Shown here piece by piece: positions 14,392 to 58,777 of a DNA stretch of 64,000 nucleotides. Every line of letters begins with the position of its first letter. The first letter of the stretch is position 1. Below the pieces are notes generated by a model that was given only the letters and a program-made list of their open reading frames with translations, did no database searches and was not told the DNA's origin. Position numbers and translations under genes: made by a program. Source of the stretch: Janibacter sp. CX7 (GTDB lineage Bacteria; Actinomycetota; Actinomycetes; Actinomycetales; Dermatophilaceae); assembly GCF_024362365.1 (NCBI RefSeq), contig NZ_CP101464.1, positions 2,976,001 through 3,040,000 of the forward strand. The letters are read 5' to 3'.

Positions 14392-14435
14392 CGGTCCATC
14401 CAAGACGAAGGGAGCCGCCCCGACCAGTGGGTTTC

Positions 14436-14473
14436 GTCCCTTCGAGACGGTCGCTGGCGTCCTCCTCAGGGAC
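14436..14473. repeat. REP-like hairpin, type A (copy 2)
   Basis: GTCCCT-tc-GAG and CTC-AGGGAC form the ends. It is the first module of a composite repeat tract filling the gap before nadE, with the same order (A, palindrome P, structured C) as at 58.5 kb. Confidence 0.75.
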
Positions 14474-14486
14474 CGGGGCGTGGCCT

Positions 14487-14530
14487 TTCGAAGAAGGAAC
14501 GCTCGCTCGAGCGAGCGTTCCTTCTTCGAA
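14487..14530. repeat. Perfect 44-bp palindrome (module P, copy 1)
   Basis: Twenty-two-bp arms with no loop, starting TTCGAAGAAGGAACGC and centred on TCGA at 14508/14509. A related 48-bp imperfect copy lies at 58581-58628, next to the same partner modules. Confidence 0.85.
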
Positions 14531-14546
14531 TGAGCCGCACCAGGTC

Positions 14547-14574
14547 TCGAGGCTCGCTGGCGCTCGCACCTCGA
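14547..14574. repeat. REP-like hairpin, type B
   Basis: TCGAGG and CCTCGA bracket a GCTCGCTGGCGCTCGCA core. Close copies occur at 16837-16863 (after nadE) and, inverted, at 56716-56740. A longer variant with its own stem is at 58778-58831. Confidence 0.65.
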
Positions 14575-14580
14575 GCGGAC

Positions 14581-14677
14581 GGCGAGGAGGCCCGGCGCAG
14601 CGTCAAGCCGACGTCGAGAACGACAACGCGACCACACGACGACGAAGGACTTCGGCAGCGCGCCGGGCCTCCTCGCC
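14581..14677 (+). repeat. Structured repeat element C, copy 1
   Basis: Perfect 18-bp arms (14581-14598, GGCGAGGAGGCCCGGCGC, and 14660-14677) enclose an interior conserved in copies at 58653-58746 and 56761-56860 (minus). The shared interior blocks are TCAAGCCGA, AACGACAAC and ACGAAGGACTTCGGC. An inner stem GCCGA-c-GTC/GACTTCGGC is also possible. The outer stem sequence differs between copies but stays complementary. The element lies 34 bp upstream of nadE. Confidence 0.8.
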
Positions 14678-14711
14678 GGGAGCAACCGGGCAGGGGCCAT
14701 AGGCTCGGGGC

Positions 14712-16832
<2,121 letters not shown>

Positions 16833-56740: not shown

Positions 56741-56760
56741 ACCCCGCTTCCGCCTCCGGA

Positions 56761-56860
56761 CGAAGGGGGACGGCTGCGCCCGCCGAAGTCCTTCGTTCTC
56801 CTCTTCGCCGGCGGTTGTCGTTGCTGACTTCGGCTTGATGTGCGCAGCCATCCCCCTTCG
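56761..56860 (-). repeat. Structured repeat element C, copy 3
   Basis: Outer arms CGAAGGGGGA-c-GGCTGCGC (56761-56779) and the matching 56842-56860 enclose the conserved interior in minus orientation: TCAAGCCGAAGTC, AACGACAAC and ACGAAGGACTTCGGC. The inner stem GCCGAAGTC/GACTTCGGC is perfect. The outer stem shares no sequence with copies 1 and 2 yet pairs fully except one position. A 31-bp fragment identical to the left arm and flank of copy 2 lies at 56877-56907. Confidence 0.75.
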
Positions 56861-56967
56861 CCCTGCGGCTCGCCTGGACGCCACGCCAACCCTCCCCGCC
56901 GTCCGCTCCGCAGGCATCCCCCTTCGGCCTGCGGCGATCGACTCGGGGCCACGTATCCTCGGACCCC

Positions 56968-58580: not shown

Positions 58581-58628
58581 CATTCGAAGAAGAAGCGCCC
58601 GGTCGAGCGAGCGTTTCTTCTTCGAATG
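58581..58628. repeat. 48-bp imperfect palindrome (module P, copy 2)
   Basis: CATTCGAAGAAGAA and its complement form 14-bp ends, with a partly paired GCGCCCGGTCGAGCGAGCG centre. The counterpart is the perfect palindrome at 14487-14530. Confidence 0.8.
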
Positions 58629-58652
58629 AGGCGGCAGGGCAGCAGAGCGGAC

Positions 58653-58746
58653 GGCGGGGAGGGTTGGCGTGGCGTCAAGCCGAAGAGAACGACAACGCGA
58701 CCACACGACGACGAAGGACTTCGGCAGCGCGCCAACCCTCCTCGCC
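58653..58746 (+). repeat. Structured repeat element C, copy 2
   Basis: Seventeen-bp arms GGCGGGGAGGGTTGGCG (58653-58669) and 58730-58746 pair with one G-U position. The interior is nearly identical to copy 1 (14581-14677). Compared with copy 1 the stem positions CCCGG changed to GTTGG and the opposite strand changed to match, which is compensatory covariation. Confidence 0.8.
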
Positions 58747-58777
58747 GGGAGCGCCACCCTTCGCCCGGAGGCGGGTC

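Follow-up and report, generated by a model that had tools for sequence, protein, structure and literature searches.

The enterobacterial repetitive intergenic consensus (ERIC, also called IRU or RU-1) is a repeat of 127 bp whose RNA, according to two sources, affects neighbouring mRNA in Yersinia (PMC2229807, PMC2267715). A repeat from the actinomycete Janibacter may, by analogy, work most like ERIC, as it has a similar size and niche and would form a hairpin RNA. It shares with ERIC, as outlined in these sources, the size, the intergenic position, a single long stem-loop, the occurrence in tens of copies and the presence in related species (PMC2229807, PMC2267715). However, it belongs to another taxon, its internal and apical loops are conserved atop a freely changing outer stem, it flips in place and a terminal 5′-TA-3′ was not seen. 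To our knowledge, the ERIC sequence is unrelated to it. Being small, intergenic, hairpin-forming and scattered over related genomes, it is nevertheless of the ERIC/MITE kind; at its ends the arms pair but differ between loci, no terminal TA is visible and the flanks are too diverged for a duplication to be read.

NEMIS/Correia, YPAL/RU-2, RUP and CIR are likewise hairpin-forming, non-autonomous looking repeats of ~100-200 bp (PMC2229807), whereas the outer arms of the Janibacter element vary by locus and only their pairing, the feet and the interior are kept. REP/REPIN repeats are palindromic and extragenic as well, but the Janibacter element comes without a Y1/RAYT transposase, without a GTAG or CGTC tag and in another architecture. 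The REP/REPIN hairpin is strand-specific, like that of the Janibacter element.

Architecture and taxonomic range

The window, a stretch of 64,000 nucleotides from Janibacter sp. CX7 (NZ_CP101464.1, positions 2,976,001 to 3,040,000), contains three copies of the repeat, just where the original prediction had placed them. Their features are as follows:

14575..14683, plus strand: copy 1, whole, with feet GCGGAC ... GGGAGC and arms 14580-14599 / 14659-14678
14592-14666, plus strand: match of copy 1 to covariance model R1, 85.6 bits
14600..14606, plus strand: copy 1, 5′ side of the internal loop, 7 nt (GCGTCAA)
14607..14615, plus strand: copy 1, 5′ half of the inner stem (GCCGACGTC), one mismatch to its partner
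14616..14647, plus strand: copy 1, apical loop of 32 nt with the conserved ACGACAAC and ACGAAG
14648..14656, plus strand: copy 1, 3′ half of the inner stem (GACTTCGGC)
56752..56869, minus strand: copy 2, whole, arm type GCAGG-GCGAAGGGGGAT; R1 match 56772-56849, 84.4 bits
58647..58752, plus strand: copy 3, whole, inner stem cut by a 3-nt deletion; R1 match 58664-58735, 73.6 bits
56877..56906, minus strand: fragment read from the sequence, a lone 5′ arm of the other arm type (GCGGACGGCGGGGAGGGTTGGCGTGGCGTC) adjoining copy 2
56915..56934, minus strand: fragment read from the sequence, a lone 5′ arm (CCGCAGGCCGAAGGGGGATG)

The repeat is a hairpin of ~110 nt, with 106-118 nt in the three window copies; the predicted locations were right, but the predicted length was too short, as the real elements extend to conserved feet (14575-14683, 56752-56869, 58647-58752). 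From the outside inwards, the feet lead into a variable outer stem (~20 bp); next come an internal loop with UCAA at the end of its 5′ side, an inner stem of 9 bp and an apical loop of 32-35 nt that carries ACGACAAC and ACGAAG. The interior words said to be shared are indeed exact in all three window copies. TCAAGCCGA is found in each of them, ACGAAGGACTTCGGC occurs three times within two mismatches (0.22 expected) and AACGACAAC three times (0.14 expected), and for neither did any of 100 shuffles reach three. The outer arms differ and yet are self-complementary in the fold of each window copy, as had been claimed. The inner stem is also kept, but not perfectly in every copy: copy 1 has one mismatch (GCCGACGTC) and copy 3 lacks 3 nt (GCCGAAG-AG).

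Copy 1 ends 28 bases ahead of gene 14712-16832, which, as read from the DNA, we take to be of the NAD+ synthetase type. Several intergenic gaps, including window 14400-14700, are dense with short repeats and lone arms, for example an unpartnered CCTTCGTCCGGAGGC. A 44-base palindrome, TTCGAAGAAGGAACGCTCGCTCGAGCGAGCGTTCCTTCTTCGAA, at window 14487-14530 is a second hairpin repeat of this genome, and a diverged form of it lies at 58582-58627 upstream of copy 3. A further repeat, CCCTTCGAGACG...CTCAGGGACCGGGG, at window 14438-14478, recurs in many of the gaps that were fetched and is found inside the apical loop of L137, L161, L164, L179 and L174:14865, at nearly the same point and in two forms that differ little. 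The apical loop holds a second genus repeat in five of the 110 copies, with loop lengths of 69-72. Reverse-transcriptase matches were noted in the same genome at C1:1271594-1271965 (L301), with a 504-aa open frame, and in the element-free genome G144, where four matches have identical scores.

The covariance model R1 was built from 18 own-genome copies with a structure given by hand. It detected 24 copies in the 3.23-Mb own genome at E < 1e-10, the next match having E = 0.03, so that the predicted three copies are correct for the window and 24 is the genome total. With the same model, 14 of 16 Janibacter genomes were found to carry the element, each with 1 to 24 copies and 119 in total. Among 149 genomes of the family, 8 had a match and all were Janibacter (one of 53 genera); a pattern scan of GTDB contigs gave 20 stretches, again all from Janibacter. 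A second covariance model, R2, built from 110 copies, was used on 396 genomes of the order and gave strong matches in three Janibacter genomes only. One or two weak matches (E from 5e-5 to 0.01) were present in each of 13 non-Janibacter genomes; in the six of these genomes that were inspected they look, by eye, like chance matches within coding sequence and were discarded. Thus, the sampled family and order genomes contain no convincing member outside Janibacter. The order search scored 12 candidates per genome, recovered 12 of the 24 own copies and was less sensitive than the genus search; diverged or rare relatives outside the genus could have been missed by it.

Rfam had no matches in the window, and seven matches returned for six loci in E-value mode were all under their gathering scores. 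In the titles and opening abstract lines of the listed open-literature papers on Janibacter palindromes and intergenic repeats, or on broader topics, no description of the element was found. This agrees with the statement that no described family with this interior is known, and the repeat is a real hairpin element that is apparently undescribed.

The following counts refer to 110 copies, comprising 109 of the 119 genus matches and one weak second match in G117. The set leaves out 7 of the 13 copies in G151 (J. hoylei), two of which were seen later (L260, L277), and one copy each in G153, G155 and G038; L004 was omitted from alignment A2 owing to its divergent internal loop, and long-loop or unparsable copies such as L181 are absent from some counts. 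In 99 of the 110 parsed copies TCAA closes the 7-nt side of the internal loop, and in 101 of 110 the apical loop has 32-35 nt. The inner stem is GCCGAAGTC/GACTTCGGC in 78 of the 110 parsed copies, and six of 110 have matched double changes in it, for example GCCGATGTC/GACATCGGC. Minimum-energy folds of 19 own-genome copies with their flanks contain the long outer stem in all 19 cases and the inner stem GCCGAAGTC/GACTTCGGC in all except L010 and L012, in which a mutation makes the inner stem pair anew; in L014 the inner stem is shortened. The predicted internal loop is 7 nt x 2 nt in GCAGG-type copies, and part of it is predicted to pair otherwise in several GCGGAC-type copies (L008, L009, L014, L015, L017, L021). 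Read by eye, the 5′ foot is usually GCGGAC or GCAGG and the 3′ foot GGAGC, and many folds start with GC, followed by a purine-rich 3x3 loop and then the stem. The mean fold energy is −57.7 kcal/mol (109 copies). A search for a further helix in the apical loop by mutual information (102 copies) revealed none; what it picked up were subfamily shifts and a single additional closing pair.

Placement, descent and in-place inversion

Judged by the genes of a simple codon-usage caller, none of the 110 copies lies wholly within a gene and four overlap a gene edge by at most 19 bases. Most of the 108 copies with both neighbours lie between convergent genes (61); in tandem gaps 15 are sense and 16 antisense to both genes, and the divergent gaps hold 16. 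Counted by locus, 18 of 39 are convergent. Of the 431 background gaps, which come from the same stretches, hold no element and measure 30 bases or more, 57 are convergent (odds ratio 5.6, p = 2.8e-6), with the proviso that gaps from related genomes are not fully independent. An asymmetry in the distance to the two convergent genes (13 vs 5 loci) was not convincing. The strand of the element relative to the surrounding genes has no overall bias (44 low and 35 high of 110; by locus 11 vs 8 of 40); taken by itself, the own genome is skewed to one side (12 vs 5 of 24). Since the orientation to the genes is free, a fixed role in cis in the mRNA of one gene is unlikely. A leading/lagging-strand bias was dropped as a candidate, because the GC skew of the fetched stretches tracks the gene strand and cannot place the replichores.

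By their flanks, 97 of the 110 copies fall into 27 groups and 13 are single. Adjacent loci with overlapping flanks can merge in this grouping; 26 of the groups span genomes and the remaining one is a neighbouring pair of the own genome. Orthologous copies are present in up to six genomes. For 62 of the 95 copies that have an ortholog, the most similar copy in another genome is the one at the orthologous locus (3.5 expected), and therefore much of the family is largely inherited by descent.

Spread and loss are evident alongside descent, since species-limited loci face element-free gaps next to the orthologous gene. For eight own loci, 60 gaps next to the orthologous gene were fetched, anchored on one side only and picked mainly where no match was listed; they contain two intact elements (L260, L277) and at least three recognisable fragments (L239, L241, L269); the remainder has little or no trace by eye. 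J. indicus is ~95% identical in the compared stretch and is without several of the own-genome copies: of copy 2 it has a 3′-arm fragment only, and in L269 only the two feet are left. The ortholog of copy 3 is present there without the 3-nt deletion. Among loci, sequence conservation stops on either side at ~25-27 nt from the internal loop, and the feet are conserved. One element of J. indicus, L200, is chimeric when compared to L127; its 5′ half is of one arm type and its 3′ half of the other, its outer arms match incompletely, and it looks like the product of a deletion between neighbouring copies.

The element also inverts in place. Base by base, the flanks of L113 in the own genome and L195 in J. 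indicus match on both sides while the element between them is inverted. Flank matching revealed such flips in 9 of the 21 groups with one element per genome; over all multi-member groups the count is 14 of 27, with neighbouring loci merged in some of them. Elements of opposite direction relative to the flanking genes were also seen at the orthologous loci L119 and L173, L136 and L156, and L120 and L150.

Constraint on the interior and on one folded strand

In the 18-copy alignment all eight outer-arm pairs have changed on both sides, a measure that 15 of 500 shuffles also reached, and the covariation score is 0.528, whereas shuffling gives 0.124 and sliding the structure no more than 0.170. 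The arms of one element pair with each other at 0.887 of 18 positions (0.807 with Watson-Crick pairs only), against 0.585 after random arm swaps (109 copies); for the 97 copies in multi-member groups the values are 0.892 for own arms and 0.723 after swaps within the group. Further copies with arms that do not pair, which would have spoken against a selected hairpin, are thus not what the family contains. Where the arms meet the internal loop, their first pair is A-C in 37 of 109 copies.

Nor did the interior drift as fast as the arms, the second observation that would have spoken against it; it drifted far more slowly. Between orthologs, and with the own genome left aside, conserved columns differ by 5.3%, variable columns by 29.6% and arms by 24.7% (16 groups), and the conserved columns are below the variable ones in 14 of the 16 groups. 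For all 24 groups the values are 4.4%, 29.3% and 24.0%, with conserved columns below variable ones in 21 and below arms in 23 of 24; the conserved columns were defined from own-genome paralogs. It is unlikely that hidden decayed copies explain a fivefold difference, because matches were accepted down to 31 bits and most score 60-91.

A folded RNA tolerates G-U but not A-C, and the ratio of the two therefore tells which strand is folded. The strand described here is the one with the purine-richer 5′ arm in 110 of 110 elements. At arm positions 1-19 it has 156 G-U and 34 A-C. Over 97 ortholog pairs with similar arms from 24 groups, the steps away from Watson-Crick pairs were 57 to G-U, 26 to A-C and 60 to other mismatches (G-U vs A-C, p = 9e-4), and 58 double changes were counted in addition; by group, 16 lean to G-U, none to A-C and 8 are ties. 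In 205 control hairpins from element-free gaps, set in the orientation with a purine-rich 5′ arm, the counts were 132 G-U and 130 A-C; without this orientation (141 G-U vs 121 A-C) the hairpins have no defined strand and are a weak control. As G-U exceeds A-C in the arms and the control hairpins are balanced, the data support the view that one strand is under selection in its folded form. In 34 of 39 loci the described strand gives a more stable arm hairpin than its complement does, and in 3 a less stable one (p = 3e-7); for the whole element 27 are more and 12 less stable (p = 0.001). The inner stem has no G-U excess: G-U occurs in 4 copies and A-C, always at the closing pair, in 7.

The co-varying arms had been put forward, together with the fixed interior, as signs of selection on an RNA or of a hairpin-based mobile element. 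The co-drift was indeed seen, but alone it does not prove selection on an RNA: template switching between the arms of an inverted repeat is published to homogenise the arms and invert the spacer (PMC8604942). Because the elements flip in place and this mechanism keeps arms paired, the co-drift of the arms may be partly mutational. The arms contain both covariation beyond the control and wobbles on the correct strand, and template switching is possible for the arm part. The constraint on the interior and the asymmetry of the wobbles do not follow from template switching.

Origin and possible function

The proposal had been either an RNA under selection or a mobile element built on a hairpin, and both halves of it found support, the one in the constraint on the folded strand at resident loci and the other in the dispersal, with its species-limited loci and fragments. 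Our leading but still tentative explanation is a genus-restricted, non-coding, ERIC/MITE-like hairpin of ~110 nt that spread intergenically while the genus Janibacter evolved and whose resident copies are selected as one folded strand, most likely RNA. RNA polymerase passing the 3′ end of a neighbouring gene would transcribe the element. In a convergent gap one of the two read-throughs would always carry the described strand, whichever direction the element has; with the described strand made either way, in-place flips between convergent genes would be tolerated, as we propose, and would change only which gene's read-through carries the folded strand. The transcript is expected to fold into the long stem, the internal loop, the fixed 9-bp stem and the large apical loop, and a protein or RNA acting in trans might bind the fixed letters UCAA, ACGACAAC and ACGAAG of its loops. 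As for the stem, it could protect, end or expose the mRNA 3′ end. Against this explanation stand the free orientation to the neighbours and the 16 copies in divergent gaps, where read-through is not expected. Rather unlikely is a mobile structured-RNA module that is specific to the genus, has its own recognition loops and inserts new copies of itself into 3′ regions, where purifying selection retains them; it would act in both orientations because convergent genes produce both strands. If this were true, an in-place flip would switch which of two genes carries the regulatory strand.

The main rival, somewhat unlikely in our view, is a purely selfish mobile element without host function, in which the described strand folds as single-stranded DNA, or as an RNA intermediate, and a trans-acting transposase or recombinase recognises interior and feet. 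The end of conservation among loci at the feet, the species-limited loci that face a gap without the element next to the orthologous gene, and the fragments, lone arms and nested copies would all fit, and a strand-specific fold suits single-stranded DNA as well as RNA. However, a Y1/RAYT-type transposase occurs in 0 of 16 genomes. Reverse transcriptases were rejected as partners of the element, as they are present in 3 of 16 genomes, one of them element-free, and do not track the copy number. Moreover, same-locus copies across species are mostly vertical and keep their interior (5% vs 25-30%), which is unexpected after a selfish insertion. The transposase count also bears on a REP/BIME repeat mobilised by RAYT, an origin that we consider refuted here on transposase and tag and to which we give hardly any credence, although an intergenic palindrome with conserved terminal bases, often at 3′ ends, would be in line with it: PF01797 (Y1_Tnp) matched at E <= 0.001 in 0 of 16 Janibacter genomes but in 5 of 14 control genomes, and the rows that were read by eye have no GTAG or CGTC at the foot. 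These two are the REP tags named in the source, which gives stems of 5-13 bp and 8-9 bp for REPs compared to ~20 bp plus a second stem here (PMC3733652).

An improbable alternative is a bidirectional terminator or insulator hairpin between convergent genes that acts through its long stem, with the interior of minor importance. Like an intrinsic terminator, the element is a GC-rich hairpin with a strong preference for convergent gaps, a very stable fold and a free orientation. But the interior, needless in a terminator, is its most conserved part, TTTT follows within 30 nt past the arm in 0 of 110 copies (TTT in one), divergent gaps are occupied too (16 of 108 copies), and at the own locus L123 a separate GC-rich, terminator-like hairpin adjoins the element. 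Very improbable, finally, is a by-product of mutation, with template switching keeping the palindromic arms complementary and flipping the spacer while the fold is unselected. The mechanism is published (PMC8604942), and the in-place inversions (L113 vs L195; the 9 of 21 one-element-per-genome groups) agree with it, but it leaves unexplained the constraint on the interior, the excess of G-U over A-C where control hairpins are balanced, and the spread to ~40 loci.

Small bacterial hairpin repeats are usually treated as selfish debris or judged from sequence alone. Sets of orthologs permit three tests jointly, of interior constraint, of co-drifting arms and of strand asymmetry in the wobbles. 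For Janibacter they say that resident loci retain the fold of one strand amid flips and losses of the element. Should transcription be confirmed, the repeat would be a dispersed element turned RNA module that is tractable in the laboratory, and it would offer a way of telling selection on RNA from template-switch correction, which also preserves the complementarity of arms.
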